IMG/VR virus record: IMGVR_UViG_3300047562_005125
Span: 1-20,419 of that record
DNA from: a virus
Length of the DNA stretch: 20,419 nt
Strand: one strand, 5' to 3'
Made by a program: the position numbers and the translations under genes. Shown here piece after piece: positions 5,108 through 19,758 of this stretch (within the stretch, counting starts at the first letter, position 1; each line of letters begins with the position of its first letter). Below the pieces are notes generated by a model. The model did not search any database, had not been told where the DNA came from, and saw only the letters and a list, made by a program, of their open reading frames with translations.

Positions 5108-5559
5108 TGTGGTATAGTCGCGTAGTGGCCGATATCAGCACTATACCTGATTTCATTGCTCACTACGAGTCTGAACTGCAGATGGCCAAGGCAGACTGTC
5201 GGATCGGCGGTCTGGTAGAAAAAAACATCACGGCTCTTCCTGGAATCACTGAACATAGGTTCAACCAGTTGCAAGAGATCGAAGCAGTGTTGAACTACCT
5301 CAACATACAGCTAAGAAAGATCCGACGACGGCATTTCCAGAAATATCTTGAAGCCTATGCACGGCAACTGTCCAGCCGTGACGCAGAAAAATATGTAGAT
5401 GGTGAAGATGAAGTGGTTGATTTTGAGACCATTATCAACGAAGTGGCACTGTTGCGTAATCGCTGGCTAGGGGTGATGAAGGGGCTTGACAGCAAACAAT
5501 GGATGACCGGACACGTGGTTCGGCTGCGCACCGCAGGCATGGAAGACGTGTCAATCTAG
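5107..5559 (+). CDS. Conserved T4-like phage protein in UvsY-like position
   Basis: 150 residues from ATG 5107, which shares one base with the preceding TGA; an in-frame GTG at 5104 is the alternative. The protein is mostly helical and charged. ALPGITEHRFNQLQEIEAV near residues 45-63 and IQLRKIRRRHFQKYLEAY just after suggest a helical, coiled, nucleic-acid-associated protein. RRRH is strongly basic, and KYVDGEDEVVDFE lies in the second half. It resembles a protein conserved in marine T4-like phages. Its length and its place in the uvsX run fit a recombination mediator such as UvsY (about 140 residues in T4), but I see no decisive signature. It converges on the next gene, with a 9-base 3' overlap. 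Confidence 0.85.
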   Translation: MWYSRVVADISTIPDFIAHYESELQMAKADCRIGGLVEKNITALPGITEHRFNQLQEIEAVLNYLNIQLRKIRRRHFQKYLEAYARQLSSRDAEKYVDGEDEVVDFETIINEVALLRNRWLGVMKGLDSKQWMTGHVVRLRTAGMEDVSI

Positions 5560-6366
5560 TAGATTGGGCGGTACAAGACGCTCCAGATTGGTCCATAGAC
5601 CATCAAAATATTCTGGATGTGCCAAAGTCCATGCAATGGCCTGCTTGATTTGATCAGTGTCTGCATCTCTCGGCAATGCCTTGACAGCCGGTGCCCAAGT
5701 TTCTAGCATGCCACCGTTTTTATGAGTTTCACTTTCGATCACCACAAAAGGACAGCGTGCCACGCAGGCAGCATACATCTCATGTTGTCGAGCTGTGACC
5801 AAAACTCGGGCGTGACGTAGGCGATTGACTATATCGTCCCATGATTCTGTGAAGATATCGATCTGGGCAGTTTCCCCCACACCAGAAATCAGCATACGTT
5901 CTCCAGGCACAAAAGCATTACCGGCCACTATATCTACAGCATCTTGCTGTTGATATGGTACCGGCAAGAAATAACTCACATCAGGACAGACCTCTACCTT
6001 GCGCGATATCGCTGACAAAATGGCGCGGCGGCTGCGCACTTCACGCACGATCACTCGATCAACACTCATCAAGATCTCAGTGACATCATCGTTGTTGTTT
6101 TGCCAGATTGAATTGGCCAAGATGGTACGAGCGCCAGCATCGTGTGCTTGCTGAAGGATGTTGAGACAACTGCGCATCTTTTTGCCATTGTCGTGAGCGG
6201 TGCCTTCGCCATTGAAAACCGCAAGATCGAGATTGGCATAGTCTATGGCATCACCTTTGTCATAAACATGGACATCATGCCCGGCAAAGTGTTGATTGAA
6301 CCACTGCATGACCTGGCGGCTGCCGCTGTGATATCCTGCGGTGTTATTGAGCAAAAGTATCTTCAT
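5551..6366 (-). CDS. Polysaccharide pyruvyl transferase-like (WcaK/CsaB-type) protein
   Basis: 271 residues from ATG 6366. This start is preferred over the 15-residue longer frame because it forms ATGA with the preceding stop and begins with a clean strand, MKILLLNNT. NGEGTAHDN at 52-60 and RQHEMYAACVARCPFV from residue 193 match the pattern of polysaccharide pyruvyl transferases: an N-terminal NG-G-T loop, then a GT-B-like second half with R-x-H followed by a small-residue helix and P-F/V. ILANSIWQNNN near residue 100 matches the middle strand. Such enzymes move pyruvate from phosphoenolpyruvate to a sugar as a ketal. Its partner is the GT29-like gene. Pyruvylation itself is not proved, since related proteins may transfer other groups. 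Confidence 0.8.
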   Translation of the reverse strand: MKILLLNNTAGYHSGSRQVMQWFNQHFAGHDVHVYDKGDAIDYANLDLAVFNGEGTAHDNGKKMRSCLNILQQAHDAGARTILANSIWQNNNDDVTEILMSVDRVIVREVRSRRAILSAISRKVEVCPDVSYFLPVPYQQQDAVDIVAGNAFVPGERMLISGVGETAQIDIFTESWDDIVNRLRHARVLVTARQHEMYAACVARCPFVVIESETHKNGGMLETWAPAVKALPRDADTDQIKQAIAWTLAHPEYFDGLWTNLERLVPPNLLD

Positions 6367-6908
6367 TGGTGGAATACAAATCCTAGTTGTTGTTGGAAAT
6401 AGGTTCGACAAAATTCACGCTCGCGATCATAAACATGTGGTTCATCTTCACGATTGGGATCATAAAAAGTAGGAGTCTGTTTCCAATCAAACCCATAAAC
6501 ACTCACTGATCGGGGCGCGCATTGACTGATGTACCAGAGCGTCATGATACCAGCGCTGGGTTTTTGTTTTTTTTCCAACGCAAGGTGTTGGGCCAGTTCC
6601 ATCCTTGATTCTAGATCTAGATAAAATACCCCGGGCTGCGGAGATTCTATCCTGCCCCGATCGCTAGTGTGTAAAATTTGCCCAATGTCCACTTCATTAA
6701 TTACCCCATGCCTGCGTATGAAGTCATACCGACTGCAGGCCAGCACCGTCAGTTTACTGCCATGACTGGGCAGTCCCATGGCTCGAGTACCAAGGTTGAG
6801 TCTTACCACCACATCGTGTGCATCGATTTGTTCACCGTGATTGGTATCAAACAGACTGAGAGCATTGCCCACCACTGCGATGGTCTTTTTCTTGAACCAC
6901 TTGCGCAT
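6363..6908 (-). CDS. GT29/sialyltransferase-like glycosyltransferase
   Basis: 181 residues, a compact form of the fold. The N terminus has AVVGNALSLF at 11-20, G25, D29 and DVVVRLN at 32-38. This matches the GT29 large motif (VGNG-S, later D-V-RFN) that binds CMP-sugar. PSAG at 117-120 and VYGFD at 137-141 match the small motif. His158 in HVYDREREF fits the C-terminal catalytic His and acidic motif. Eukaryotic GT29 enzymes are longer and membrane-anchored; this one lacks a membrane segment. CMP-sialic acid or a related CMP-ulosonate is the family's expected donor, but no synthesis genes for one lie in the window. ATG 6908 faces the cupin gene across a 60-base gap. Confidence 0.82.
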   Translation of the reverse strand: MRKWFKKKTIAVVGNALSLFDTNHGEQIDAHDVVVRLNLGTRAMGLPSHGSKLTVLACSRYDFIRRHGVINEVDIGQILHTSDRGRIESPQPGVFYLDLESRMELAQHLALEKKQKPSAGIMTLWYISQCAPRSVSVYGFDWKQTPTFYDPNREDEPHVYDREREFCRTYFQQQLGFVFHQ

Positions 6909-6968
6909 GAATCTATTTATTTGTTGGGCCGGCTGTGTTTAGCATTAAATATCAGCAGGAGAATACAC
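6909..6968. promoter_or_regulatory. Divergent intergenic control region
   Basis: This 60-base gap separates the minus-strand GT29-like gene from the plus-strand cupin gene. Plus-strand TAAATATC (6946-6953) is followed by AGGAG (6957-6961) and ATG 6969. On the minus strand, AATAAATA lies a few bases before ATG 6908. Both resemble the T4-type late promoter TATAAATA. The minus-strand copy is close enough to its start to give an almost leaderless message. No Shine-Dalgarno is seen for the minus gene. Confidence 0.5.
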
Positions 6969-7325
6969 ATGATAGCTGGAAAAGTTTGGGGGCAGACAGA
7001 ACTGTTGGAAGCCAACGGTGTGTTAGAGTTTCATCGCATCGAGATCCGATCCGGTGGCGTTTGCAGCAAACATCGCCATCGGCACAAATGGAATGGGTTT
7101 TTTGTGGAGCGTGGAGCCTTGCTGATACGAGTATGGAAAAACAACTATGATCTCGTGGATGAGACCATCATACGAGATGGACAATACACCAAAATCGCGC
7201 CAGGTGAATATCATCAGTTCGAAGCCTTGGAGGATACCGTGGCCTTCGAACTGTACTGGGCCGAATTCAATCATGATGATATCGAGCGACAAGATGCTGG
7301 ATTCTTGCGAAGCGCAGATCAATGA
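6969..7325 (+). CDS. Small cupin-domain protein
   Basis: 118 residues from ATG 6969, chosen because AGGAG ends 7 bases upstream and the frame before it runs through the promoter gap and the opposite gene. It is a single cupin barrel: HRHRH at 35-39, Glu47 in FFVERG, then APGEYHQFEAL with His82. This matches the two cupin metal motifs (H-x-H...E and P-x...H). It resembles the C-terminal cupin of mannose-6-phosphate isomerase/guanylyltransferase and free-standing sugar-processing cupins. An isomerase, epimerase or sugar-binding role in nucleotide-sugar supply is reasonable but unproved. The next gene starts 39 bases downstream, after another TAAATATC. Confidence 0.85.
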   Translation: MIAGKVWGQTELLEANGVLEFHRIEIRSGGVCSKHRHRHKWNGFFVERGALLIRVWKNNYDLVDETIIRDGQYTKIAPGEYHQFEALEDTVAFELYWAEFNHDDIERQDAGFLRSADQ

Positions 7326-7336
7326 TCAAGCACCGC

Positions 7337-7344: not shown

Positions 7345-7364
7345 ATGCAAGAACGAGGACAAGA

Positions 7365-9020
7365 TTGACTATCAAAGTATTCATTGGTTGGGATCCAGAA
7401 CACGCTGAAGCCGCTGAAGTGTGCCGGCACTCGCTGTTGAAACACAGCACTGTTCCATTACAGATTGAATTCCTTAAACAAAGCGAACTGCGTGAAGCCA
7501 AGCACTACTGGCGCGAAGACGATTCGGGCTGCAGTACAGAATACACCTACACACGCTATCTAGTGCCGCATCTCATGGAGTATTCGGGTCTGGCAGTGTA
7601 TGTTGATGCTGGATTTGTGTTTTTAGATGACGTGCGCGAGCTGTTACAGCACTATGATTCTCGTGCTGCGGTACATGTAGTAAAACATCAATACAAACCC
7701 AAAAACACTACAAAACTGGTAGATCGAGAACAGCATGTGTATCCACGTAAAAACTGGAGCAGCCTCATGCTGTGGAACTGTGCCCACCCAGATCTGCGAA
7801 CCTTGACTGCTGAAGCAGTCAGCACTCAGTCTGCACAGTGGTTGCATCGATTCGAATTTATTCCTTCCAGCACAGTCCACAGTCTCAATCCCGATTGGAA
7901 TTGGTTGGTAGATTGGTATCATGAACCAGATGATGGCACGCCTCGGGCACTGCATTTTACAGAGGGCGGACCTTGGTTAAAAAACCATCGTCAGTGCAAG
8001 TATGGTTGGTACTGGGCTCAGGCCTATCACGATTGGCAGCGCAGCCAAATCAGTGCACCTATGCCCGGTGTGTTGGATTCCATACCGCCTGACATCGAAC
8101 GTTTATTCTTGGATGTGCTAGAGTGGCGGGTTGATCCTGGCCAACAGTACAACCAAGTCGCATATGAAGATCTAACCGCAGCCCTGTCTCGACTCAACAA
8201 TCGAGCAGCGGTGGCAGTGGAGGCCGACACCGTGTTTGAAAGCAGCGATAAACTTGAGGCCAAAGGCCACAACTACGACCCGTTCCTTAAGAGTTTTATC
8301 ATGGGATCTGGCGGACAGATCACAGTCTGGGACAAAACCAGCGAAGATACCACGCCGGTGATCCTGCGTGGAGTCACCAAACGCAAACACATGGCTGCCT
8401 GTGAAGCCAAGGGGCGTGATTACTACTATATCGACACAGGATATTTTGGCAACGGGCGCAAGAAAACCTATCATCGCATCACGCGCAATGCCATGCAGGC
8501 CACGGGGCCCGTGATCAAACGTCCAAGAGACCGATTGTCAGCCACAGGGTGGGCACCACGCAAATTCCGACCCGGTAGCCATATCTTGCTGGCACCGCCC
8601 AGCCAGAAACTCTTGATGTGTTATGACATCGATCTTGAACAGTGGTTGAAAGACACTGTGGATCAGCTGAGATTGTTTACAGATCGCGAAATCATTATAC
8701 GCAACAAAGCCAGTCGCAGCGTGCGGCAAAGTTCTGACACCATCGAGATGGCTCTCGAACGCAATGTGCATTGCCTAGTAACCTTTAGCAGTATCGCAGC
8801 AGTGGAGGCCGTGTTGTACGGCAAACCAGCCATTACCCTAGGACCCAGCGCGGCTCATGCTGTGACCAGCCACGAAATACGCGACATAGAAAAGCCCTAC
8901 ATTCCTACGCTTGATGAAGTCGAGGAGTGGGCTGCACATCTGGCCTACTGCCAGTTTACTGAGGCCGAGATGCGCGACGGCACTGCCTGGCATATCCTAA
9001 CTGATCGTGATGACACCTGA
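7365..9020 (+). CDS. Two-domain glycosyltransferase: GT8-like GT-A plus KpsC-like domain
   Basis: 551 residues from TTG 7365. No ATG fits the frame, and GAGGA (7355-7359) ends 5 bases before the TTG. Residues 1 to about 225 match a bacterial GT-A family: VFIGWDP, STEYTYTRYLVP, YPRKNWSSLMLWNC at 126-139, and HFTEGGPW at 197-204. The expected metal-binding DxD is Asp81-Ala-Gly83, so the second Asp is missing. Asp88 and Asp89 follow. Residues about 300-551 form a second domain: YIDTGYFGN at 355-363, KRPRDR, and TFSSIAAVEAVLYG from 473. This resembles the serine-rich nucleotide-sugar loop of capsule proteins such as KpsC. The domain is homologous to the separate gene at 15927-16727. It may add two successive sugars, or the N-terminal part may be altered or inactive. 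Confidence 0.9.
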   Translation: MTIKVFIGWDPEHAEAAEVCRHSLLKHSTVPLQIEFLKQSELREAKHYWREDDSGCSTEYTYTRYLVPHLMEYSGLAVYVDAGFVFLDDVRELLQHYDSRAAVHVVKHQYKPKNTTKLVDREQHVYPRKNWSSLMLWNCAHPDLRTLTAEAVSTQSAQWLHRFEFIPSSTVHSLNPDWNWLVDWYHEPDDGTPRALHFTEGGPWLKNHRQCKYGWYWAQAYHDWQRSQISAPMPGVLDSIPPDIERLFLDVLEWRVDPGQQYNQVAYEDLTAALSRLNNRAAVAVEADTVFESSDKLEAKGHNYDPFLKSFIMGSGGQITVWDKTSEDTTPVILRGVTKRKHMAACEAKGRDYYYIDTGYFGNGRKKTYHRITRNAMQATGPVIKRPRDRLSATGWAPRKFRPGSHILLAPPSQKLLMCYDIDLEQWLKDTVDQLRLFTDREIIIRNKASRSVRQSSDTIEMALERNVHCLVTFSSIAAVEAVLYGKPAITLGPSAAHAVTSHEIRDIEKPYIPTLDEVEEWAAHLAYCQFTEAEMRDGTAWHILTDRDDT

Positions 9021-9912
9021 CGTTGTAGTTTACTTCAGCAGCCTGCAAAAACAAACTCCTAGCCGCAAAATTGATGTGCTTCAGGCCTTTGCCGATGGCG
9101 CTAGAAATCAAGGAGCCAAGGTTGTAATCCAACGCACTGCTGATGTCATACCAGCACGCATGGCTGTGATCTTGGGTTGGCCCAGCCCGCTTCAGCACGG
9201 ACACAACATAAGATTACGAGCAGCAGTGGTCAAGCAGCAAAAACGCGACAACAATCATGTCATGGCCATTGACGCCAGCACTTTCAAATTTCATGACAAT
9301 CATGGCAAGTATCTAAGATACAGCCTCAACGGCGTTTTCTATGATACCAGTGAATATGCCAACCTTAACAGTGATGCCACTCGCTGGTTGACCATCAGCA
9401 ATGATCTTGGACTGTCAATGAAACCGTGGCGTACCGCGGGTGACTACATCTTGCTGCTGATGCAGCGAGATGGCGGATGGAGCATGAAAGGCCTAGATCC
9501 CATAGCTTGGGTCCGACAAAAACATCAGCAGCTTCGTGCAGTTTCGCAGTTGCCTATGGTTGTACGTCCACATCCGGGCAAAAGTATTGATCTCTCACCG
9601 CTGCGTGATCTAGACATTGAAATCAGCCACAGCAGTCAGCGCACTTTGCAGCAAGATTTAGAGAGGGCCAGAGCTGCCTGCGTTTTTAACAGCAGCAGCG
9701 GAGTGGCAGCTATCTTGGAGGGTGTGCCCTTGATGGTAGATGATCGCAGCGCAGTGACGTATGATGTCAGCCATCACGGGGTAGATGTCATAACCGCTCC
9801 CAGACTCTTGGAAAGGCAGCAGTGGTTATGGGATCTCAGTGCCGCACACTGGAGCGACGAAGAAAGTCGGCAAGGTTTGATCTGGAATAAGTTTGCACCA
9901 CTGATCAGCTAG
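9010..9912 (+). CDS. KpsC/capsule-synthesis-like GT-B protein
   Basis: 300 residues from ATG 9010; GTG 9007 is an adjacent alternative. The N-terminal half contains LQAFADGARNQGA and a Rossmann-like VMAIDAS. The second half has VRPHPGKS at 185-192 and FNSSSGVAAILEGVP at 226-240. Capsule glycosyltransferases of the KpsC/KpsS and CDP-glycerol transferase type share an RPHP strand followed by a serine-rich loop and a helix ending in G-x-P, which binds the nucleotide donor. The same layout occurs in the gene at 17581-18429. It overlaps the preceding two-domain gene by 11 bases and converges on the minus-strand operon with an 8-base 3' overlap. Donor and acceptor are unknown. Confidence 0.82.
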   Translation: MTPDVVVYFSSLQKQTPSRKIDVLQAFADGARNQGAKVVIQRTADVIPARMAVILGWPSPLQHGHNIRLRAAVVKQQKRDNNHVMAIDASTFKFHDNHGKYLRYSLNGVFYDTSEYANLNSDATRWLTISNDLGLSMKPWRTAGDYILLLMQRDGGWSMKGLDPIAWVRQKHQQLRAVSQLPMVVRPHPGKSIDLSPLRDLDIEISHSSQRTLQQDLERARAACVFNSSSGVAAILEGVPLMVDDRSAVTYDVSHHGVDVITAPRLLERQQWLWDLSAAHWSDEESRQGLIWNKFAPLIS

Positions 9913-10573
9913 CTCTTGGTCGACTCATGGCCCACCAGGTCAAGGCCTGATCGCTGTGATCCACGGTTCTCAAATAGTCCCATCCCACACGCCAATCTGT
10001 CAGCTGATGATCAATCCGACGCACTAGATAAGTCTGGCAACGCACCGAGGCAGCACGATCAACGTCCCTTATAATGGCGGGCCAGCTCCGTCCTGTGTCC
10101 TTGAATTGCTTGCCTGCGCGTAAATTTTGCATGGCCTGGTCTAAATTGTTGATGCGGTCTCGGTGCGCTACGATGACATGTTCTCCCAGACGTTCGTGCT
10201 TGGTGATCTGGCGCCGTTCATGCTGCTCACCCCAACCGTGGCGGAAGTCGCTGCCCATGAAAACCACATCTAACTCACCGTCGATCACGCTGCTGACTTC
10301 GCTCAGCGTGGCCTCGGCTGCGCCGCTACCAAACCAAACTTCTGTAGAAAGATAGATCACGATGGGATTTCGCAGACCCTGCATGCGTTGATAGTATTTC
10401 CAGATCTCACAAGGACCTAGACGCTCAAACTCGCATGTGTCATCTGTATCTATGGCATCTCGCCAATGAACCTGTACTGGCCAGTTCTGCCTCAAGAGAT
10501 CCAGCATGCGATCGTGATTGATCCTGGTGGCATCGCGCCAGGTGAGTTCACCGTGATATACTACATCGATCAT
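9905..10573 (-). CDS. Third tandem paralogue of a putative GT-A family, diverged
   Basis: 222 residues. It aligns by eye with the two genes upstream: the start MIDVVYHG, an N-terminal NH motif, W-K/D then VWF at 79-81, LDVVFMGSD, a VIVAHRDR segment, and a C-terminal YLVRR...DWRVGWDYL. The other copies carry K-[WF]-RTD-x-WF; here the residues are LSTEVWF with Ser-Thr-Glu at 76-78. That loses the Arg and replaces the likely catalytic or metal-binding Asp with Glu. It may be inactive, structural or of changed specificity. It is the last gene of the minus operon. ATG 10573 overlaps the previous stop as ATGA. WavE-type LPS glycosyltransferase is the closest family I can suggest, with low certainty. 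Confidence 0.82.
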   Translation of the reverse strand: MIDVVYHGELTWRDATRINHDRMLDLLRQNWPVQVHWRDAIDTDDTCEFERLGPCEIWKYYQRMQGLRNPIVIYLSTEVWFGSGAAEATLSEVSSVIDGELDVVFMGSDFRHGWGEQHERRQITKHERLGEHVIVAHRDRINNLDQAMQNLRAGKQFKDTGRSWPAIIRDVDRAASVRCQTYLVRRIDHQLTDWRVGWDYLRTVDHSDQALTWWAMSRPRAS

Positions 10574-11250
10574 AGTGGTTGTTCCGGATCACAACCGTCG
10601 AGGAACTGTCGGGACAATTGTCCAGCTTTGTATCCGCGCACAAAATCACTGGCCACTGTGTAGTCTGTCATGACATCGCGTTCCTGTCGCACTAAGAATA
10701 TCCTGCACCAGGCAGTTTCACATCTTTCAAGATTCTGAGCAATACATCTAAAAACCAAATTGCCATTTTTTACATCAGACCCTAGCAGGCTGCTTCGTAC
10801 CTGATCAATAGGTCGCAGGGCAGCGCGCCGGGACACTATCACAAAGTCTGGCACCTTGGCATGACGCAGTGTGGCATGGGTCTCTATACGCAGTCCGTTC
10901 TTGACATTGCTGCCGAGATAGCCCACGTCGATTTGCTCAGTCAAAACTCGTTCGGTGAGATGCAGCAGAGGATCGATACTGCTTTTGGCAAACCAGTTGT
11001 CAGTGCGCCATTTCATGATGACAGGACAGTCAATGAGCTGTGCGGCTTTCATGAAATCCCAAACCTGGATGCCTCCTGCAGAGCCGGGTGATCCCGACAC
11101 TGGCATGTCCGTGCGATCAAACTCAGGCTGCAAAAATCGTGTCAATGAAATGTTGCCAAATCTTTGCTCAAGTTCACGCATGACCCAGGCATGATTGTCT
11201 CGTGTCTGCTCCTGGAATCGCGGCAACCCGATGTAAAATATTCCTAGCAT
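10570..11250 (-). CDS. Second tandem paralogue of a putative GT-A glycosyltransferase
   Basis: 226 residues from ATG 11250. A longer frame starts at GTG 11265, but the MLGIFYIG start aligns with MISIFYTG of the upstream copy. Key features are IQVWDFMKAA at 61-70, VIMKWRTDNWF at 77-87 with Arg82-Thr-Asp84, IDVGYLGSN, PDFVIVSRRAAL, and a C-terminal KNGNLVFRCIAQ. The strand then R-T-D then aromatic pattern resembles the metal-binding loop of some GT-A enzymes acting on lipopolysaccharide (WavE-like); this is a family guess. It overlaps the upstream gene by 7 bases and the downstream gene by 4, so the three copies are probably translated together. Confidence 0.85.
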   Translation of the reverse strand: MLGIFYIGLPRFQEQTRDNHAWVMRELEQRFGNISLTRFLQPEFDRTDMPVSGSPGSAGGIQVWDFMKAAQLIDCPVIMKWRTDNWFAKSSIDPLLHLTERVLTEQIDVGYLGSNVKNGLRIETHATLRHAKVPDFVIVSRRAALRPIDQVRSSLLGSDVKNGNLVFRCIAQNLERCETAWCRIFLVRQERDVMTDYTVASDFVRGYKAGQLSRQFLDGCDPEQPL

Positions 11251-12026
11251 TGATAAGTGGTCCACCAGTCCCAGGCAGCATCAAGCAGATGATTTTCTTC
11301 CAATCTTGTCCGACTCATGTAGCTGTCGATATAGTCTCGGCACACGTCACGATCTGTTGGCTGGCTGTCATAGGATTTTCTAATCAACCATAAGTGACAC
11401 AGCACCCCACGAGCTCGCGCAAAGTCACCAAGGATGTATCTAAAAGTTTTGTTACCGCTGCGTATTTTCCTAGGTGGCATAGCCAGCATACGATCTGTCG
11501 CACGCTGTGCGGTGTTCAAGCTGGTTCTCCGCGCTGCTATTACAAAATCTTGCAACCTAGCAGGATCATGTGCAGTGACTTCGTACACTTCGTGCTCTTT
11601 GCCTTGATTGTCATTTACAAGGTCACTGCCAAAGTAAATTACATCCACATTGTCTTTGATGATGTCTCTGACATGCTGTATCAGCACATTTCGAGCGCTG
11701 TCTGTAAACCAGACATCTGTACGGAATTTGATCACGATGTCTCCCGTGACTCTTTCTGCCGAAGTCAAGAAATCCCATACCTGCACAGCGCCGCCTTGTC
11801 CTCGTCGGTAGTTGGTGATCCAATGGTCTCCTTGCTTACCTCGCTTCATGATTCGATCATCGCCACCTTCGTCAAAAGGACAGTGTCCACGGTCGGCGTA
11901 GTCTTTTGTGAACCAGGACACTTCGACCGAATCTAGAGTGGCCAACTCTTGTATCACAGGCTCGTGATTTTCGCGCATGATTTCGGCATTGTGTCTCCGG
12001 TCACCGGTGTAAAAAATACTGATCAT
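11244..12026 (-). CDS. First tandem paralogue of a putative GT-A glycosyltransferase
   Basis: 260 residues, the longest of the three copies. An insertion of about 20 residues (43-76, rich in Gly, Asp and Lys) precedes AVQVWDFLTSAE at 80-91. IVIKFRTDVWF at 97-107 carries Arg102-Thr-Asp104. Also shared with the other copies are VDVIYFGSDL, DFVIAARRTSL, SGNKTFRYILGD and LWLIRK. The C terminus ends in WDWWTTYQC. The fold appears Rossmann-like GT-A, and the enzyme probably transfers a sugar from a nucleotide donor in the cytoplasm; specificity is unknown. ATG 12026 overlaps the stop of the nucleotidyltransferase-HAD gene as ATGA. The duplications presumably began from one of the two copies that retain RTD. 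Confidence 0.86.
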   Translation of the reverse strand: MISIFYTGDRRHNAEIMRENHEPVIQELATLDSVEVSWFTKDYADRGHCPFDEGGDDRIMKRGKQGDHWITNYRRGQGGAVQVWDFLTSAERVTGDIVIKFRTDVWFTDSARNVLIQHVRDIIKDNVDVIYFGSDLVNDNQGKEHEVYEVTAHDPARLQDFVIAARRTSLNTAQRATDRMLAMPPRKIRSGNKTFRYILGDFARARGVLCHLWLIRKSYDSQPTDRDVCRDYIDSYMSRTRLEENHLLDAAWDWWTTYQC

Positions 12027-13045: not shown

Positions 13046-13776
13046 AGTCGGTTTATTTCCTTGATCAAAAAATCGTGTTCGGCGCTGTGAGGCTGGCAGT
13101 ATCGAAACACTCGCAACAGCATCAGCAACAACAGCGTGTTGTCACTGGCTTGAGGCCAGCGCTCAAGCAGTCCGCGCTGTATATATGCTAGTTTATTCTC
13201 CAGCATGGCAGGTTTGGCTCTCAAAAACCAGTGACACTCGAGATCCTGCCTTAGCTTGGCTATGTCATAGATCACAGAATCCCAGATCGTGGTCTGGCAG
13301 TCGATCATGACAAAGCCATGATCAGTGGCTATGATGTTTTCCAAGGTGAGATCACCTATGTAGTCGGTACTTGGTATGTCAGCAGGCATGCGGCAAGCCA
13401 GTTCTTCTTGGGTGAATTGGAATGGCCATGGATTCACGGTCTGCAGAAATTCTTGGTACTGCTGGGTGCGATCCATCTGGACAGGATCTGCTCCCAAAGT
13501 ATCAGTGACCTCAATCAAGAAGTCCAACAGGGGTTTGGCGGGATTTGATATCAGCCAGCTGCGCATGTCCACGCCATGGACATATTCGATGTCGAGATTT
13601 TCGCCGTGTTGTCCATACACTGCCGGCACTGGGACCCGACCGCTTAGATGTTGCAGTCGCTCAAGATTGCGCTGATTGTTGCCCACTTTGCGCACAAACA
13701 GACTGCCGTGTTTGTGCATGAGATACACTTTACTGCCGCTGAATCCTTGGAATGTCTGTACGATCCTGGCAGCCAT
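13036..13776 (-). CDS. APH/choline-kinase-like phosphotransferase
   Basis: 246 residues with a kinase-like fold. GFSGSKVY at 11-18 is the glycine-rich loop, Lys30 in LFVRK the ATP lysine, and IEYVHGVDM the hinge. YIGDLTLENII at 139-149 is the catalytic loop, with Asp142 and Asn147. VMIDCQ contains Asp159, the metal-binding residue, and YDIAKL follows. In most APH and choline kinases the catalytic loop begins H-[GN]-D; here the His is Ile139-Ile140, a change away from the Asp base itself. The family phosphorylates small alcohols, amino-alcohols or sugars. Its place directly before the nucleotidyltransferase suggests that it makes the phosphorylated substrate. It starts 3 bases after the methyltransferase stop. 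Confidence 0.85.
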   Translation of the reverse strand: MAARIVQTFQGFSGSKVYLMHKHGSLFVRKVGNNQRNLERLQHLSGRVPVPAVYGQHGENLDIEYVHGVDMRSWLISNPAKPLLDFLIEVTDTLGADPVQMDRTQQYQEFLQTVNPWPFQFTQEELACRMPADIPSTDYIGDLTLENIIATDHGFVMIDCQTTIWDSVIYDIAKLRQDLECHWFLRAKPAMLENKLAYIQRGLLERWPQASDNTLLLLMLLRVFRYCQPHSAEHDFLIKEINRLCK

Positions 13777-13779
13777 GGG

Positions 13780-14343
13780 TCATTTGAATGCTACAACACG
13801 GCTGTCGTTGGCAGTTTTGCTGTGATGATTGGCCTCTGCTTGGCTGTGTGTGAATCCGACTTCAAGGAACAGGTGGCACAAACTGTGTTCACTGTATCCC
13901 CACTTGTGCCACATCACAGGATCAGGATATCTTTCATTGTCTCCGTAGATACCAAGTACGGTGCGTTTTTGCAAGCGCCGATCTGCACCTGCCAAAAGAC
14001 AGTCAGGGTTTTTCACCACTTCCTGACACATTTTTAAGAAGTCCGGCCACTCAATTGCGGCGAATCCACCTGGTCGCAAGATACGGTGCCACTCGCGCAG
14101 CATGTTGGCTACACGACTCCGCGTGATGTGTTCTATCACATGCACTGTAAGTATTTCATCAACTGAGTTGTCAGGCAAGGGAAAAGGCTGTGTGATATCA
14201 TGTATGGTAACTGCGCTGTTATCGCGCATGTATTCGCCGTCCACGTTGATGTAACCATCAAAAATCCGCGAACCACAACCTAGATGCAATCGCACAGGTT
14301 CGTTGCGATTTCGTTTATCTTGCACCAGGCTTTCTAATTGCAT
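13780..14343 (-). CDS. Class I SAM-dependent methyltransferase
   Basis: 187 residues. LHLGCGS at 19-25 is motif I, which binds S-adenosylmethionine; GYINVDGE follows as the acidic motif II. HDITQPFPLPDNSVDEIL and VHVIEHI form the motif IV region of Methyltransf_11 proteins, and EWHRILRPGGFAAIEWPD is the conserved post-motif strand. The C-terminal part has MWHKWGYSEHSL, seen in sugar or lipid methyltransferases of glycan clusters. It could O-methylate a sugar, for instance as a chain cap. ATG 14343 overlaps the upstream glycosyltransferase gene by 29 bases, the longest overlap in this operon; a shorter start cannot be excluded. Confidence 0.88.
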   Translation of the reverse strand: MQLESLVQDKRNRNEPVRLHLGCGSRIFDGYINVDGEYMRDNSAVTIHDITQPFPLPDNSVDEILTVHVIEHITRSRVANMLREWHRILRPGGFAAIEWPDFLKMCQEVVKNPDCLLAGADRRLQKRTVLGIYGDNERYPDPVMWHKWGYSEHSLCHLFLEVGFTHSQAEANHHSKTANDSRVVAFK

Positions 14344-15277
14344 CTATAGTCTCCAGGAACCGTTGGGCTACTCGCCCCGCACTGTAATTATCAATAGCAT
14401 ACTGTTGTCCTTGCGTTACTCGCTGCTGGGCCTGCTGGGGATTTTTCATGGCCCACTGTATGCCTTGCATGGTGTCCTGTTGCCAGGTATAAGGGCCAAA
14501 TTCTAGATAGCTGGCCAACGGGGTAGTGATCACGAAACGACCTGAAAACAAACTGTCGATTACGCGGTTAGCGCTCTTGGTATCGGTGCGATAGTTTTCT
14601 GTCACTACTGGTATCACCACCATGTCGGTATCAGCCAAAAGCGTGCCTTGCAGTTGCCAATCCCACTCTAGCATGTGGATGCGATCAAAATTCACACCTG
14701 GTGAGTGCCCACGACGATGGCGTTCCAGCATTTTGTTGCGCAAGCGATCTACCTTGGCCGTGACCATGGTGAACTGATAGTTTTTGATGTGTCGTTCTAG
14801 ATCAGCCCACAGTGTGGTCCAAGGCACGAATTTTAGACTGGCACTGCTGCCAAACCAGAGCAGCTTGACATCTCCGGTTGGTGCGAACCTCGGTTCCAGG
14901 ATGGGACGTTCACCGGGATCTGGTATCACATGGCTGTCTTTGCCCGTGTTTTGTTTCACGGCCAGCGCCATTTGATCACTGTTTACAGTGATAGCATCGG
15001 CAGCCAGGCAGCATGGTACATACTCTTCTTTTTCATCAAACTTGTTGTCGCAGAGATCATATATGGTGAAAGCACCCTTGGCCCGTGCTTGTTGGATATG
15101 ATCGGCATTGCTCATTTTGAGGAACACCACTACTGTGTCGCTGTCGATGTCACTGAGATCCCGACTGGCCACTGCATCGTGTCCAAGCTCCCTCAAAGCC
15201 TGCGCCATGACATCACCTCGCAACCTATGACTGGCTCGTTTGGTCTTGAATCTGCTGCTCCAGAATCTGATTTTCAT
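14315..15277 (-). CDS. GT-B (GT4-like) glycosyltransferase
   Basis: 320 residues. The N-terminal Rossmann domain begins MKIRFWSSRF and includes RLRGDVMAQALRELGHDA (helix after the acceptor loop) and TIYDLCDNKFD at 71-81. The second domain opens with KLLWFGSSASLKF at 138-150, the typical strand linking into the donor site. It continues with VVIPVVTENYRTDTKSANR, whose acidic and Lys residues (Glu227, Lys234) match the GT4-type donor site, then VIDSLFSGRFVITT. The family is retaining and uses nucleotide-sugar donors. No membrane anchor is seen. ATG 15277 overlaps the FkbM stop as ATGA. Specificity is unknown. Confidence 0.87.
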   Translation of the reverse strand: MKIRFWSSRFKTKRASHRLRGDVMAQALRELGHDAVASRDLSDIDSDTVVVFLKMSNADHIQQARAKGAFTIYDLCDNKFDEKEEYVPCCLAADAITVNSDQMALAVKQNTGKDSHVIPDPGERPILEPRFAPTGDVKLLWFGSSASLKFVPWTTLWADLERHIKNYQFTMVTAKVDRLRNKMLERHRRGHSPGVNFDRIHMLEWDWQLQGTLLADTDMVVIPVVTENYRTDTKSANRVIDSLFSGRFVITTPLASYLEFGPYTWQQDTMQGIQWAMKNPQQAQQRVTQGQQYAIDNYSAGRVAQRFLETIDAIRKPGAR

Positions 15278-15930
15278 TTAGGCCACCCCATGATCCAATC
15301 ATCTTTCACCTGATCCACTTTGGTCATGCCCCAGCTCTGCAGTAGATCCACGGCAGCGTGCTGGCTGTATTGGTCGCTGTAGGCATCATGTGGCTTTTGT
15401 TCAACCACTACGATGGGACGACATCGCCGGATAGTGGCTTCTGCGCCCTGCAACACCCTGTACTCAAAGCCCTCGCAGTCGATCTTGATGTAATCGATAT
15501 CCTGGTACTCAAAACTGTCCAAGGTGCGTATTTCAGTAGAGCCATGTCCAAAACTGTTGGGATCAACATGTGTGTGTCCCATGTTGTCCTCGGTAATGAT
15601 CATTTCCACTTGCCCGGGTCGATCGCCAAGGGCGCAGCTTTCTATGATGAATTCGGGATTTTCAGGCACGTTCAGTTTCAGGCAAGTGCGGAACATGTCC
15701 ACGGGTTCAAAGGCAATCACGCGCTGGAACCGTGGCATGAGATCGCGGCTCCACAGGCCTACATTGGCGCCTATATCAAGTGCAGTGCGGAACGAATGAC
15801 AGTGCAAGAGACTGCGATCGCGCACTTGGTATTGATAGCGTGCTGGACCACCTTTGCTGATGCTCTTGTCGAGCATTTTAATAAAGTGTGTTTCCTGATC
15901 AGGAAACCACCATCCGAGATGTTGTTTCAT
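15274..15930 (-). CDS. FkbM-family methyltransferase
   Basis: 218 residues from ATG 15930, which forms ATGA with the upstream stop; GTG 15939 would add three residues. LDIGANVGLW at 51-60 is the SAM-binding motif I, and VIAFEPV follows as the acidic strand. TLDSF, then DYIKIDCEGFEYRVLQGA, is the strongest FkbM signature, followed by PIVVVEQ. FkbM proteins O-methylate polyketides, sugars and glycolipids, and are frequent in surface-polysaccharide clusters. It lies between a KpsC-like gene and a GT-B gene, in step with glycan methylation. Together with the class I enzyme two genes downstream, the operon has two independent methyltransferases. Confidence 0.92.
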   Translation of the reverse strand: MKQHLGWWFPDQETHFIKMLDKSISKGGPARYQYQVRDRSLLHCHSFRTALDIGANVGLWSRDLMPRFQRVIAFEPVDMFRTCLKLNVPENPEFIIESCALGDRPGQVEMIITEDNMGHTHVDPNSFGHGSTEIRTLDSFEYQDIDYIKIDCEGFEYRVLQGAEATIRRCRPIVVVEQKPHDAYSDQYSQHAAVDLLQSWGMTKVDQVKDDWIMGWPK

Positions 15931-16727
15931 CGAGGCCACTCCGATTGTATGATGCCACGAGCTACGCCGTTGGCCAGCTCGGTGTTATGGAATTGTCCGT
16001 ATGCGAGATGCCGGCACCACTTTTGCACAAGATCGGCATCAGGAAACCAAGGATCCTCTATGCGTGAAAGATCGGTGTTGGCCACCGGCAAGGCTGCACT
16101 ACAAGGTGCCATCACGAACACAGGCACACCACTCATCACGGATTCTACAGCGGCATTGCTGTTGAACGTGATCACAGCATGCACATCTGCCAGCGCTGAT
16201 TGGAAATCATTGCTCAATCTCTGCTGTCGATTTGGGTTGCGCTGGCGTATTTCTATAGGCCTGTCGGTGTGTTCGCGCAGGGTGCGCTGTGTCTGATCCA
16301 GCCAGTGCGCAAGGTTGATGTCGTAGACCTGGCAGGGTTTTTCGTCAGGCGCTGCGATCAAGATCTTGCGTCCCTGCTGTCGGGCACGCAGCGAGATACG
16401 ATGTCGCTCCCAGCGATCTGCTGGCCGGTCGATGATGTCACTGTGTTGGAAATTGTCTGGTACTACGCGGTGCCAGGTCTTCCAGCCATGCGGATTTTGC
16501 GGATTTGGACGATTGCCAAAATATCCGGTGTCGATGTACAAGAACGGTCTCCGATCCTGCCAACATCGTTTGATTATTTTGTGCTTGAGTATGCCGCGCA
16601 ATACCAAGGGATCGCGGCTGCTATCGTAGTCCCAGGTTTCCAAAGTAGTAGGCTCTTGACCCGATCCCTTGGCGAAGAGATTGATATACTCGTCCACGCC
16701 GCCCTTGCTGAGGAAGATCCAGGTCAT
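15927..16727 (-). CDS. KpsC-like glycosyltransferase, homologue of the C-terminal domain of the 7365 gene
   Basis: 266 residues from ATG 16727, chosen over TTG 16742 because of the ATGA overlap and the strand-forming MTWIFLSKGG start. YIDTGYFGN at 64-72, IDRPADRW, ILIAAPDEK, WLDQTQRTLREHTDR and TFNSNAAVESVMSGVP run in the same order as in residues 310-551 of the two-domain protein at 7365-9020. The last 40 residues also match (HLAYGQF against HLAYCQF). The asparagine/serine-rich loop followed by a G-x-P helix end resembles the donor site of capsule enzymes such as KpsC. Here the domain stands alone, so it can act without the GT-A partner. It follows a GT-A gene, so the GT-A plus KpsC-like pairing is repeated as two genes. 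Confidence 0.86.
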   Translation of the reverse strand: MTWIFLSKGGVDEYINLFAKGSGQEPTTLETWDYDSSRDPLVLRGILKHKIIKRCWQDRRPFLYIDTGYFGNRPNPQNPHGWKTWHRVVPDNFQHSDIIDRPADRWERHRISLRARQQGRKILIAAPDEKPCQVYDINLAHWLDQTQRTLREHTDRPIEIRQRNPNRQQRLSNDFQSALADVHAVITFNSNAAVESVMSGVPVFVMAPCSAALPVANTDLSRIEDPWFPDADLVQKWCRHLAYGQFHNTELANGVARGIIQSEWPR

Positions 16728-17569
16728 GTGATCTGTTGCCAATAGCTTTCGTTTCGGGGAACCTTGATGTCATGTGGGAGACTATGTCCGGCCTGTTTGC
16801 GATTGTCGCCCTTGAGGTGGTCTAGATAGGCACCCCAGGGAGAATTGATGAGCGGGTGGCCTTCACCAGCAGTGTTTCGCGGGCTACGGCGGAGATCGGG
16901 CAATCCCGTAGCCCAGTCCCACTGCCGTAGCCCTTCGATCTTCTTGCGCACACTGTCAAACACGAAACTGTCATGCCATTCGCCCAGAGTAAAAATGCCG
17001 TTGTCAGCATCGTTATACATGCGTTGGAATTCCTTGACGAATCGGGTGGTACCCTTGGTGCCCAGTTGCATGGCGTAGAGTCCGCACTCGCTGAATTTGC
17101 CATGCCGTCCAAGGTAGCATAGATCTTGATTATCCGGGCACATGGTGTCTATGAATGATTCGGTGATAGGCGAATGGCACACCATGTCTGCATCCATCCA
17201 CAACAGCCAAGGTCGCTGAGCAGTTTTTACAGCATGGAATATGGCATACACTTTGTGCGCGAATCGCACAGCATCCCACTTGAATACCTTGGCGCTGTCT
17301 TTTCTCAAGCCGCGTATGGGATCGTCAGATATGTGACCATTGGCCTTGGGTACCGAGCCCCAGCGCTGTTTGAAGGCCACGAGATCGCTACTGGTCGAGG
17401 CAAGATCCAGTATCTCGAGATTTGGTGCCCGCTGCGTGACTTCGCAGTCTTCGGCATACACCCGTAGCTGCACCGAGCTAGGCCAGGTCTGTAACCACGT
17501 GTCAATCATGCGGCTGGCATATCGATTGTATCCGGCAGCGTTAAAGGTGGTAACTACTGTGTATTTCAT
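16724..17569 (-). CDS. GT-A glycosyltransferase with DxD motif
   Basis: 281 residues. MKYTVVTTFN starts the fold, and WLLWMDADMV at 121-130 has the metal- and nucleotide-sugar-binding Asp126-x-Asp128. KVFKWDAVRFAHKVYAI (95-111) precedes it as the helix typical of this phage-associated family. LYAMQLG and EWHDSFVFD form the acceptor side, and HLKGDNRK is the C-terminal His segment. It probably transfers a hexose from a nucleotide donor. It is the first gene of the ten-gene minus operon. Its ATG 17569 lies only 3 bases after a TAAATATC box and has no clear Shine-Dalgarno. Confidence 0.88.
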   Translation of the reverse strand: MKYTVVTTFNAAGYNRYASRMIDTWLQTWPSSVQLRVYAEDCEVTQRAPNLEILDLASTSSDLVAFKQRWGSVPKANGHISDDPIRGLRKDSAKVFKWDAVRFAHKVYAIFHAVKTAQRPWLLWMDADMVCHSPITESFIDTMCPDNQDLCYLGRHGKFSECGLYAMQLGTKGTTRFVKEFQRMYNDADNGIFTLGEWHDSFVFDSVRKKIEGLRQWDWATGLPDLRRSPRNTAGEGHPLINSPWGAYLDHLKGDNRKQAGHSLPHDIKVPRNESYWQQIT

Positions 17570-17572
17570 AGG

Positions 17573-17580
17573 GATATTTA
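17573..17580 (-). promoter_or_regulatory. TAAATATC box in an 11-base divergent gap
   Basis: On the minus strand ACTAAATATC lies directly before the first gene of the long operon, ending 3 bases from ATG 17569. On the plus strand the same 11 bases supply AGGGA (17570-17574), which acts as a Shine-Dalgarno 6 bases before GTG 17581. If this is a late promoter, transcription would start at or inside the start codon, so a downstream start or leaderless translation would be needed. The function is uncertain. Confidence 0.4.
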
Positions 17581-18429
17581 GTGGCCGGGACCTTGGGGTG
17601 GTTCGAAAATCAATGTGCGCTCAACAGCCGTGAACCCATGCAGGCATTCTTGCAGGGCGCACGGCGCCACGGCTGGCAGATACGGCCCAATGATCTGGCA
17701 ACCGATGCTGTGGTGATTTGGAGTGTGCTCTGGGCTGGACGCATGCGCAACAATCAGCAAGTATACCAGCAGTTTCGTGACCAAGGACGGCCAGTGTTTG
17801 TGATTGATGTAGGCAGTATCTGTCGTAATGTGACTTGGAAGGTGGCTCTAAACCATGTCACGGCCCAAGGGCACTACGGACACCAAAACGACATTGATCT
17901 GACCAGGCCCGAAAAGCTCGGAATCCGCCTCGAACATCAAGTACACAACAACGGTGGGATATTGATCGCTGGACAGCACGCCAAAAGCCTACAAATGCAA
18001 ACATGGCAGTCTCAAGAGGCCTGGATTAATCATGCCATTGATTCCGTGCGCCAGCACACGGATCGTAGTATCACTGTCAGACCTCATCCCCGCAGCCGTA
18101 TCAATGTCGCAGACATAAGGTCTGGAGTCACGATTCAAGCACCTCGAGCCCTGGCCAACACCTACGACAGTTTTGATCTTGCGCATCATTATCATGCCAC
18201 GGTTAATCACAACAGCGGAGTAGGCATACAATCTGCCATGGCCGGTTGCAGGGTCATCGTAGACAGCACCAGTCTAGCACATCCGGTATCAATTTCACCC
18301 AACAAGCTCGAGTCTGCTAACGATAAAGATCGAACATCATGGTTTATCGAAATTTGCCACACCGAATATCTAGTAGAGGAAATGGCACTGGGTTTGCCGT
18401 TTGAAAGATTGACCAGGTATATTTCATGA
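17581..18429 (+). CDS. KpsC/capsule-synthesis-like GT-B protein
   Basis: 282 residues from GTG 17581, supported by AGGGA 6 bases upstream and by alignment of MQAFLQGARRHGW with LQAFADGARNQGA of the 9010-9912 protein. VFVIDVGS at 72-79 is a Rossmann strand. VRPHPRSR at 166-173, followed by VNHNSGVGIQSAMAG at 208-222 and VIVDSTSLAHPVS, forms the second domain seen in KpsC-like and CDP-glycerol-type transferases. It is therefore another member of the group found at 7365-9020, 9010-9912 and 15927-16727. Its stop overlaps the next start as ATGA. Substrates are unknown. Confidence 0.82.
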   Translation: MAGTLGWFENQCALNSREPMQAFLQGARRHGWQIRPNDLATDAVVIWSVLWAGRMRNNQQVYQQFRDQGRPVFVIDVGSICRNVTWKVALNHVTAQGHYGHQNDIDLTRPEKLGIRLEHQVHNNGGILIAGQHAKSLQMQTWQSQEAWINHAIDSVRQHTDRSITVRPHPRSRINVADIRSGVTIQAPRALANTYDSFDLAHHYHATVNHNSGVGIQSAMAGCRVIVDSTSLAHPVSISPNKLESANDKDRTSWFIEICHTEYLVEEMALGLPFERLTRYIS

Positions 18430-19292
18430 CCAGTAAAGATTGGAAACGTTTGTTGCGGCAACAACAGGCCGAAGCTTTTGAACGACAGCAACGGGCGGCC
18501 TTGAAAGAACAGCGACGCGCAGAAAAAGCCTTGGCGCGCATGCAACAAGAAACACGCGATGCGGCACCACCAGTGATCCGCGGTGCTCTACATTGCGCCT
18601 GTTTGATACACAGCACTGGATACGATTGGAGCTACGTAGATAGACTCTACAGCATGATTTCACGCAATCTTAATCGCGATGTAATTTTTCATGTCTACAC
18701 CGAAGAGTCAAGAGCGGTGCCCGCACACATGACCAAACATGTGCTGAAAGAATGGCCAGGACAATGGGGTGCCAGGAAAAGTTGGTGGTACAAGATACAA
18801 CTCTTCAACTGTGATTACTATCAAGGACCTTTGCTGTACTTCGATCTTGACACTGTCATCGTTGGACGACTAGATTGGATCACCGAACTATCTACAAAAT
18901 TCTTGTGGGCACCCAAAGATTATCGATATCTCTGGAAACCCACGCACCAAGGCATCAACAGTTCGGTGATGTGGTGGGACACTACACGTTTTGATTGGAT
19001 CTGGCGTGACTTTGACCAAGCCAACCTTGCACAAATCATGCGGCACTACAATGGCGATCAAGACTACATCAGCGATAAGATAACTCCTAACAACCTGCGT
19101 ACCTTTTTGCCCATGTCGGCTATGAGTTGGCGCTGGCAGGTCAAGGACGGAGGCATGAACTTCAAAACACGCCAGTATCAAAATCCTGGTTCCGGTACCC
19201 ACCTGGACAGTCGAACCTCGATATTGGTTTTCCATGGATCTCCTAAACCGCACGAAGTGGATGATCCTGTGATCAAAAACTTTTGGCAATAG
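18426..19292 (+). CDS. GT-A glycosyltransferase with N-terminal coiled coil
   Basis: 288 residues. Residues 4-45 are a charged helix rich in Arg, Gln, Glu and Ala (RQQQAEAFERQQRAALKEQ), probably a coiled coil for oligomerisation or docking. The catalytic domain begins near residue 53. LLYFDLDTVIVGRLD at 136-150 has the Asp140-x-Asp142 metal motif, HQGINSSVMWW binds the acceptor side, and LVFHGSPKPHEV at 267-278 supplies the conserved C-terminal His-Gly that coordinates metal in GT8-like enzymes. This FHG-x-PKP ending is common in phage and cyanobacterial glycosyltransferases I remember. ATG 18426 overlaps the previous stop as ATGA. Confidence 0.9.
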   Translation: MTSKDWKRLLRQQQAEAFERQQRAALKEQRRAEKALARMQQETRDAAPPVIRGALHCACLIHSTGYDWSYVDRLYSMISRNLNRDVIFHVYTEESRAVPAHMTKHVLKEWPGQWGARKSWWYKIQLFNCDYYQGPLLYFDLDTVIVGRLDWITELSTKFLWAPKDYRYLWKPTHQGINSSVMWWDTTRFDWIWRDFDQANLAQIMRHYNGDQDYISDKITPNNLRTFLPMSAMSWRWQVKDGGMNFKTRQYQNPGSGTHLDSRTSILVFHGSPKPHEVDDPVIKNFWQ

Positions 19293-19293
19293 C

Positions 19294-19758
19294 ATGCAAC
19301 GCTGTGTGAGATTGATATTGGATGTAGTGCCCAAGTCTGACTTGTACGCTAAAGTGTCATGGAACGGTGAAGTGGTCTATCATGACCTCATCATCGGTAA
19401 CACAGAGTGGTACACCAAAGCAGATCTCTGGGGAGACATAGATCTCGCCGTCAGCATTGCTGGTCGTGGGTCTGTGATCTGGCGAGATTTGCACATGAAT
19501 TACACCGGCTGTCTATTGTGTTTGCCTGGCAGCGAAAGTTCAGGTGGGCAAAGAGTGCTGCCACGGGATTTCTTTGCACCACCGTCCGTGTCTCCTGACT
19601 GTCGTCGCTGTGTTAGTGTTGATGGCCAGTTGGTTGAGATCGATCGCTCATCTGGACTCACTGGTAATTGGCACTACGAGTTGATCGGTCCCTGTGAAAT
19701 GCGAGCATCGATTCGAATCGATCGTCAAAAAACCATGCTTTGGACTCCGGTTATCTAG
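19294..19758 (+). CDS. Unrecognised 154-residue beta-rich protein
   Basis: No family is recognised. The start lies one base after the previous stop, so it is probably co-translated with the GT-A gene. The first 65 residues alternate hydrophobic and polar residues (RLILDVVPKSDLYAKVSWNG, then VVYHDLIIG), suggesting a beta-sandwich. NTEWYTKADLWGDIDLAVSI is aromatic-rich. A central cysteine-containing stretch (TGCLLCLPGSES) precedes PDCRRCVSVDGQ, and the end is again strand-like. The cysteines (CLLC, CRRC) could bind a metal, though the spacing is unproved. No signal peptide or membrane segment is seen. A carbohydrate-binding role would suit the position but is a guess. Confidence 0.72.
   Translation: MQRCVRLILDVVPKSDLYAKVSWNGEVVYHDLIIGNTEWYTKADLWGDIDLAVSIAGRGSVIWRDLHMNYTGCLLCLPGSESSGGQRVLPRDFFAPPSVSPDCRRCVSVDGQLVEIDRSSGLTGNWHYELIGPCEMRASIRIDRQKTMLWTPVI

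Follow-up and report, generated by a model that had tools for sequence, protein, structure and literature searches.

The viral DNA analysed here (the window) comprises all 20,419 bases of the IMG/VR record IMGVR_UViG_3300047562_005125 and carries a glycan-assembly island at positions 5551-19758, between the recombination genes uvsX and uvsY and an ATPase gene. The island holds 18 open reading frames (ORFs) with 99% coding coverage, at least 15 of them of glycan type: about 11 glycosyltransferase (GT)-like genes, two methyltransferases, a pyruvyltransferase-like gene, a WbuC-type cupin, a kinase and a nucleotidyltransferase-HAD fusion. This bears out the original prediction of such an island inside a T4-like phage genome, T4-superfamily membership being indicated by UvsX and UvsY in the window and by the sheath, tubes, TerL and gp32-like gene of a close relative, G018. 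The ORFs lie in four runs: PSpyr-GT29 leftward, cupin-GTA-x-GTB12 rightward, ten genes leftward (GT22-GTx21-FkbM-GTB19-MT11-APH-NT-HAD-GT15-GT14-GT13) and GTx23-GT24-o25 rightward. The island genes and their borders are:

3804..4865, plus strand: UvsX recombinase, flank (phrog_97 E 1.2e-68)
5104..5559, plus strand: UvsY recombination mediator, left border of the island (phrog_231 E 2.2e-12)
5551..6360, minus strand: PSpyr, polysaccharide pyruvyl transferase-like (PF04230 36.8 bits, cut-off 25.3)
6363..6908, minus strand: GT29-like short protein (PF00777 E 8e-10, residues 9-41 only, i.e. 33 residues)
6969..7325, plus strand: cupin, WbuC-like (TIGR04366 E 2.3e-6, under that model's cut-off)
7365..9020, plus strand: GTA-x, GT-A (GT8-like) domain fused to a predicted KpsC-fold GT-B domain (phrog_28018, of unknown function, E 1e-50; GT8 E 0.0036)
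9007..9912, plus strand: GTB12, predicted KpsC-fold GT-B paralogue with HP motif (hhalign 99.9% to GTx21)
9905..10573, minus strand: GT13, GT-A family paralogue (aligned with GT15)
10570..11265, minus strand: GT14, GT-A family paralogue (same alignment as GT13 and GT15)
11244..12026, minus strand: GT15, GT-A transferase with invariant R-x-D, third gene of the activation/transfer module (AlphaFold pLDDT 84 and Foldseek)
12023..13045, minus strand: NT-HAD, sugar nucleotidyltransferase-like domain fused to HAD phosphatase (PF12804, just under cut-off, and PF08282; PDB 4evw E 2e-9)
13036..13776, minus strand: APH-fold small-molecule kinase, always beside NT-HAD (PF01636 25.2 bits, cut-off 23.2)
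13780..14343, minus strand: MT11, S-adenosylmethionine (SAM) methyltransferase (PF08241 E 1.4e-9)
14315..15277, minus strand: GTB19, probable GT-B transferase, HpsP-like (NF038295 E 8e-4, far under cut-off; conserved position)
15274..15939, minus strand: FkbM-type methyltransferase (PF05050 E 1.5e-20; TIGR01444 E 9e-27)
15927..16742, minus strand: GTx21, predicted KpsC-fold GT-B enzyme without HP motif (AlphaFold pLDDT 91.6 and Foldseek)
16724..17569, minus strand: GT22, GT-A (GT2-like) transferase with MDADM motif, first gene of the ten-gene leftward unit (PF00535 23.5 bits, cut-off 23.3)
17581..18429, plus strand: GTx23, predicted KpsC-fold GT-B paralogue with HP motif (hhalign 99.8-100% to GTx21 and GTB12)
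18426..19292, plus strand: GT24, GT-A transferase with DLD motif (phrog_1962 glycosyltransferase E 1e-24)
19294..19758, plus strand: o25, fast-evolving small protein directly 3' of GT24 (comparable proteins at like position in about ten loci)
19940..20419, plus strand: ATPase, right flank, cut by the contig end (phrog_1250 E 4e-19; start inferred from promoter position)

The curated Pfam cut-off was reached by matches to PS_pyruv_trans, Glyco_transf_29, HAD Hydrolase_3, APH, Methyltransf_11, Methyltransf_21/FkbM and Glycos_transf_2, and GT8, NTP_transf_3 and DUF6716 gave sub-threshold matches. For GT13, GT14, GT15, GTB12, GTx23 and GTx21, no named family was matched significantly by sequence, and their assignment comes from profile-profile comparison together with AlphaFold models and Foldseek. 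Profiles of GTx21, GTB12, GTx23, GT22, GT24 and o2 (a gene upstream of uvsX) retrieved nothing usable from PDB sequences, and only fold comparison helped. The earlier gene list stands for the GT-A, GT-B, pyruvyl transferase-like, cupin, kinase, NT-HAD and two methyltransferase genes, but its GT29-like protein is a short N-terminal match. For the last ORF, o25, we found no Pfam or PHROG match, and none to a glycan enzyme or a structural family; it is a possible acceptor or lectin. Small fast-evolving proteins, partly interrelated, lie directly 3' of GT24 in the window and in L012, L042, L090, L109, L118, L119, L143, L164 and L173-L175, and form a tandem pair in L119 and L174.

Several genes are conserved to the level of motifs: those of NT-HAD are invariant in 18 sequences, as are D126 and D128 of GT22 and D140-L-D142 of GT24 in their own alignments. 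Others vary among relatives. PSpyr, which probably starts at 6360 (inferred from a second contig, L142, and the GT29 end), is specific to the window among the loci examined (self matches only), and the GT29-like gene is found only in the window among related cassettes. The cupin, with a probable start at 6969, has copies in other islands that are 62-78% identical, the counterpart of GTA-x in many relatives is a pair of separate genes, and GT14 has no match in isolated phages. No obvious transmembrane segment was seen in any cassette protein.

Recurrence, exchange and selection at the uvsX-uvsY site

Recovery based on UvsX gave 80 viral loci, many with GT genes behind UvsY, and scans with the GT15 and NT-HAD families added 118 further loci, some on already recovered contigs; all long contigs are fragments, and duplicate contigs were removed by name. 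At least 33 distinct viral contigs carry six or more cassette families together with UvsX/UvsY, which answers the suggestion, made with the original prediction, to look in viral metagenomes for the same ordered cluster beside uvsX. The phages form a clade of uncultured T4-superfamily jumbo phages in which the cassette occupies a fixed locus, after uvsX-uvsY and before an ATPase and a helicase gene, where it is sometimes inverted. The gene order of G018 runs from tail sheath and tail tubes through terminase and a gp32-like gene to UvsX and UvsY, then through the cassette to ATPase, helicase and Kdo-8-phosphate synthase. Within the cassette, the order GT22-GTx21-FkbM-GTB19-MT11-APH-NT-HAD-GT15 recurs in both orientations (e.g. 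L107 and L109 versus the window); APH is followed by NT-HAD in all 76 distinct cases, and NT-HAD by a member of the GT13/GT14/GT15 group within two genes in 57 of 77. The concern that phage and glycan segments might form an assembly chimera is ruled out by L142, which agrees with the window at 99.96% identity over a stretch of 11,171 nt that runs from the radical SAM gene upstream of uvsX across the phage/island junction into the island, and by the many contigs that share the same junctions.

Median dN/dS values of the cassette genes are 0.05-0.12 (UvsX, 0.04), and these genes are under strong purifying selection. Presence among related phages is sporadic and polymorphic. Eight loci have a near-empty site, with only 0.2-2.7 kb between UvsY and the ATPase (L050, L054, L055, L057, L060, L063, L069 and L078), and no GTx21-type gene occurs anywhere on the 93-182 kb contigs of L050, L078 and L080. 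On the UvsX tree the island state needs four changes, at least three of them on well-supported branches. We regard the cassette as a hypervariable, exchangeable glycan-assembly block at one locus of this clade. Window UvsX is 68% identical to that of the Sinorhizobium jumbo phage Phosso, and UvsX of isolated jumbo-phage relatives is 65-69% identical to it. The idea that glycan genes generally adjoin uvsX in jumbo phages was considered and rejected: Phosso, Vibrio 2.275.O, Atu_ph07 and CBB annotate none within 12-15 kb, many genes near their uvsX being annotated as hypothetical.

Additionally, the module occurs in other phages. A second group without UvsX nearby (L156, L157, L166, L167, L171, L172 and L177) has it in another order, with more sugar-biosynthesis genes, including a dehydratase and, in some, an aminotransferase, a formyltransferase and KdsA. 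The APH-NT-HAD pair is also found in further phage backgrounds (L180, L182-L185 and L190-L207), with no recognisable GT15 gene adjoining.

Four genes lie 5' of uvsX (positions 94-3748), and promoter-like sequences precede uvsX and the ATPase gene:

94..1155, plus strand: radical SAM protein (PF04055 E 1.7e-11; best NCBIfam match far under cut-off)
1139..2098, plus strand: o2, conserved phage protein of unassigned function, often just 5' of uvsX (12 sequences aligned, 40-48% identity to the window copy)
2083..2898, plus strand: o3 (homologue two genes 3' of Kdo-8-phosphate synthase in G018)
2882..3748, plus strand: SGNH/GDSL-like hydrolase, possible esterase (PF13472 E 0.0027, under cut-off)
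3752..3780, plus strand: sigma-70-like promoter before uvsX, TTGACC-17-TACAAT (consensus match only)
19875..19903, plus strand: strong sigma-70-like promoter before the ATPase gene, TTGACC-17-TATAAT, right border of the island (like element 5' of the ATPase in other loci)

The radical SAM protein is a possible accessory outside the conserved cassette. The likeness of o2 to glycosyltransferases was judged by eye only, and its profile found no credible match in PDB. Homologues of o2 lie 5' of UvsX in about 12 other loci and those of o3 in three, and both also occur elsewhere in G018. A promoter scan of the window gave 30 sites where 18 are expected by chance, convincing only before UvsX and the ATPase, and no T4-late promoter motif (TATAAATA) was found in the window. 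The start codons of the divergent genes GT22 and GTx23 are 11 bp apart (17569-17581), and the sequence there (AGGGATATTTAGTG / CACTAAATATCCCT) is mostly kept in at least five other loci. This AT-rich motif was indistinguishable from coding and ribosome-site constraint.

Predicted folds, sugar chemistry and absent partners

In Foldseek comparisons, the best matches of the GTx21 model were KpsC, KrkA and WbbB, apart from SenB at rank 3 (E 2e-5 to 9e-4, TM 0.4-0.54), the best solved match being KpsC, a capsule Kdo transferase. Profile-profile comparison joins GTx21, GTB12 and GTx23 in one family, and the GTx21 profile also matches the C-terminal half of GTA-x in relatives. The GT15 model matched SpsA, COLGALT1 (collagen galactosyltransferase) and Mimivirus R655 (E 1e-6 to 1e-5, low TM). 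In all, the cassette thus encodes four domains of predicted KpsC fold that are paralogues of one another, and a set of three GT15-type paralogues. Matches to the Pfam Capsule_synth family (PF05159) were sub-threshold only, on three related contigs (E about 0.001-0.006). Compared with KpsC, WbbB and KrkA (GT107, GT99), the GTx21 model shares the overall modified GT-B fold, and of the four paralogues only GTB12 and GTx23 have the HP motif (H189-P190, invariant in 17 sequences, and H169-P170, invariant as well), but identity is only about 10-14%.

Related islands add a sugar chemistry of their own: GDP-mannose dehydratase, a dTDP-glucose dehydratase-like protein, NDP-sugar dehydrogenase, DegT aminotransferase, formyltransferase, GT25 and an HldE-like nucleotidyltransferase fused to a mannose-6-phosphate isomerase domain. 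Kdo is a sugar of the inner core of lipopolysaccharide (LPS) and of capsule linkers. The Kdo-8-phosphate synthase family is present in seven of 37 contigs, all cassette-bearing (L224:2101-2952, at 82.1 kb of G018; also L230, L231, L235 and L232-L234), and the two copies tested are genuine, both scoring over the NCBIfam equivalog cut-off. In G018 the gene follows the ATPase at a distance of 1.6 kb, and in L164 it is a neighbour of uvsY. Bacterial homologues of NT-HAD were found in apparent exopolysaccharide/O-antigen clusters, whose neighbouring genes were named by eye, of Polynucleobacter and of a Legionellales metagenome-assembled genome, the latter homologue being fused to APH. The best bacterial relative is that of Polynucleobacter, at 30% identity, which is a lead only and no host assignment. 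Elsewhere in G018, at 123.6 and 127.8 kb, two proteins that look amidinotransferase-like by eye (L226:3609-4820 and L226:7808-8779) flank an NDP-sugar dehydrogenase-like gene; the pair gave one weak arginine-deiminase Pfam match.

In the window itself, Pfam detected neither a dehydratase nor an epimerase for NDP-sugars, and no phosphosugar transferase of the lipid-carrier type, flippase, polymerase or exporter, which lends no support to a self-sufficient or strictly capsule-like system as first envisaged. PF02397 (lipid-carrier transferase) and PF01943 (flippase), counterparts of which belong to a Wzx/Wzy capsule or O-antigen locus, were found in none of 17 related contigs, with positive controls; the search was confined to these two families, PF02397 being one of several initiating families, and did not extend to ABC exporters or polymerases. 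Since no lipid-carrier transferase, flippase or obvious membrane segment was found, either the host exports the product or the acceptor is cytoplasmic; judged from the gene content, the cassette of the window would depend on host donors and host export, or act on a cytoplasmic acceptor.

Possible roles and known counterparts

We give about an even chance to the idea that the cassette remodels surface glycans of the host, and favour it over decoration of the virion because the Kdo synthase, the WbuC-like cupin and the KpsC fold are signatures of envelope glycans. The APH kinase and NT-HAD would make one activated sugar or polyol, which the GT15-type GT-A enzyme would add. The KpsC-fold and other GT-A and GT-B enzymes would extend the chain with more residues, among them probably acidic sugars of the Kdo type, from donors made by host or phage, and the two methyltransferases, joined in the window by the pyruvyltransferase-like enzyme, would cap or decorate the chain. 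The chain would most likely be built on the cytoplasmic side, on LPS or capsule precursors of the host, and exported by the host, as the enzymes look soluble and neither a lipid-carrier transferase nor a flippase was found. By this change the phage would mask receptors against competing phages (superinfection exclusion) or give the infected host a surface that differs in some other way.

Several points weigh against this proposal. No CMP-Kdo synthetase (PF02348) was found in cassette-bearing contigs. In retaining Kdo transferases the nucleophile Asp is absolutely conserved (WbbB D232, KpsC D160; PMC9587256); in the KpsC-fold paralogues, compared by sequence spacing only, no such Asp stands at the expected position. 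At position +4 from the conserved Gln before HP, which was taken as WbbB Q228, GTB12 has Gly and GTx23 has Ser, both columns being invariant. The histidine of the HP motif, invariant in GTB12 and GTx23, is absent from GTx21 and from the C-terminal half of GTA-x. Because the Asp is not seen at its expected place and two paralogues lack this histidine, the donor may not be CMP-Kdo, and for the same reasons we class the paralogues as putative KpsC-fold enzymes of open donor rather than as Kdo transferases. Furthermore, the acceptor, most likely LPS or capsule precursors of the host, is one that we infer, and if the fast-evolving protein 3' of GT24 were instead the dedicated acceptor, as it could be, decoration of the virion would gain in likelihood.

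Such decoration, in which the cassette glycosylates capsid, tail fibres or the protein 3' of GT24 and thereby shields the particle or tunes adsorption, is a possible reading, though we rate it as somewhat unlikely. It would suit enzymes that are soluble and cytoplasmic and for which neither lipid-carrier nor flippase partners were found, and the like proteins directly 3' of GT24 in about ten loci. The G018 cassette begins about 6 kb after the tail-head-terminase block, CcrColossus has homologous GTs and a sialyltransferase-like gene directly behind its tail genes, the matches of the GT15 model include the PBCV-1 capsid glycosyltransferase, and virion glycosylation has a precedent in mycobacteriophages, cited in PMC12619734. 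However, the immediate neighbours of the cassette are replication and recombination genes, the protein 3' of GT24 matches no structural family, and the envelope-glycan signatures named above point elsewhere. A bolder variant, which we consider a long shot, is that the phage makes a Kdo-type acidic glycan on its own small protein 3' of GT24, a glycoprotein coat that would change by cassette exchange, with the Asp-less KpsC-fold paralogues as a new enzyme family.

DNA glycosylation is the classic role of glycosyltransferases in T4-like phages, and a place beside uvsX/uvsY and helicase genes would fit an oligosaccharide hypermodification of phage DNA that escapes restriction. Yet PF00303 (thymidylate synthase/dCMP hydroxymethylase), the acceptor-base gene family of T4-type glucosylation, was found in none of 31 contigs of up to 182 kb, which are incomplete fragments (controls were positive in nine of 14 genomes; other base-modification routes lay outside the search), and this role, which we find improbable, is a poor match for the genes for Kdo synthase, cupin, pyruvyltransferase-like enzyme and sugar biosynthesis. 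Of the three roles first proposed, DNA hypermodification is thus the least likely, and host envelope and virion both remain candidates. Equally improbable, in our view, is a small glycosylated metabolite or signalling compound, in the manner of a second cyanophage cluster type. Secondary-metabolite clusters, too, contain kinase, NT-HAD, methyltransferase and radical SAM genes, and a survey of jumbo phages (PMC7824862) suggests such a product for a cyanophage cluster that has cupins, HAD phosphatases and O-methyltransferases; against it stand the roughly 11 GT-like genes, the KpsC-type folds and Kdo-8-phosphate synthase, and no halogenase or carbamoyltransferase was noticed, no search being aimed at them. 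That the island is a passive mosaic of host-derived genes with no coordinated function, as its varying content and the window-only genes PSpyr and GT29 might suggest, is hardly credible and largely refuted by selection and synteny: gene order is kept over deep UvsX divergence, APH and NT-HAD stay together throughout, dN/dS is low and motifs are intact.

Surface-glycan clusters of phages are already known. P-SSM2 has a 15-gene LPS/capsule-modification cluster proposed to block rival phages (PMC7824862, section 3.4.10), so that the earlier statement that phages carry one or a few such genes was too strong. The cyanophage clusters, likewise from T4-superfamily phages and variable among relatives, bring together many GTs, a cupin and sugar activation, with methyltransferases in some variants; in agreement, the present cassette has several GT families in one cluster, a putative kinase and nucleotidyltransferase (of other families) and a polymorphic presence. 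It differs in its uvsX/uvsY-ATPase site, in APH and the NT-HAD fusion instead of PfkB and a HIGH nucleotidyltransferase, and in its KpsC-fold paralogues; an NAD-dependent epimerase/dehydratase of the cyanophage type is absent from the window but present in related islands. Pelagimyophages have a GT-containing host-recognition hypervariable region (PMC7029224), and the Pelagibacter phage Mosig carries adjacent homologues of both halves of GTA-x, GTx21, GT22, GT24 and FkbM (29-37% identity) with no NT-HAD match. Unlike in the window, the GT-rich region lies beside tail-fibre genes in pelagimyophages and near ribonucleotide reductase genes in Mosig. A marine environmental viral genome with Gmd, WcaG, ManC, NeuA, KdsA, WaaG and T4-like structural genes (PMC5332604) shares LPS/capsule enzymes including KdsA, but its gene set differs and no APH-NT-HAD-GT module is described. 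The Caulobacter jumbo phages (CcrColossus, Bertelyvirus) have an adjacent gene pair homologous to both GTA-x halves, near a sialyltransferase-like and a GT9-like gene in CcrColossus, in a small cluster that, unlike that of the window, lies behind tail genes and before lysis genes. Moraphages have four core GTs (PMC12619734). The present cassette stands apart by its site, its APH-NT-HAD-GT15 module, its KpsC-fold paralogues and its conservation across the clade, and an earlier description outside the open-licence literature is possible.

Phage glycan clusters are usually seen as scattered host-derived extras. Here we find one selected cassette at a fixed site, with a conserved pathway order, near-empty relatives and a clade-wide distribution. 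Additionally, the predicted KpsC-fold paralogues and the APH-NT-HAD-GT15 module represent enzyme families without an assigned product. The finding makes testable whether large phages remodel the surface of their hosts in the course of infection, and how they may swap surface types, much as bacteria do with O-antigen loci.

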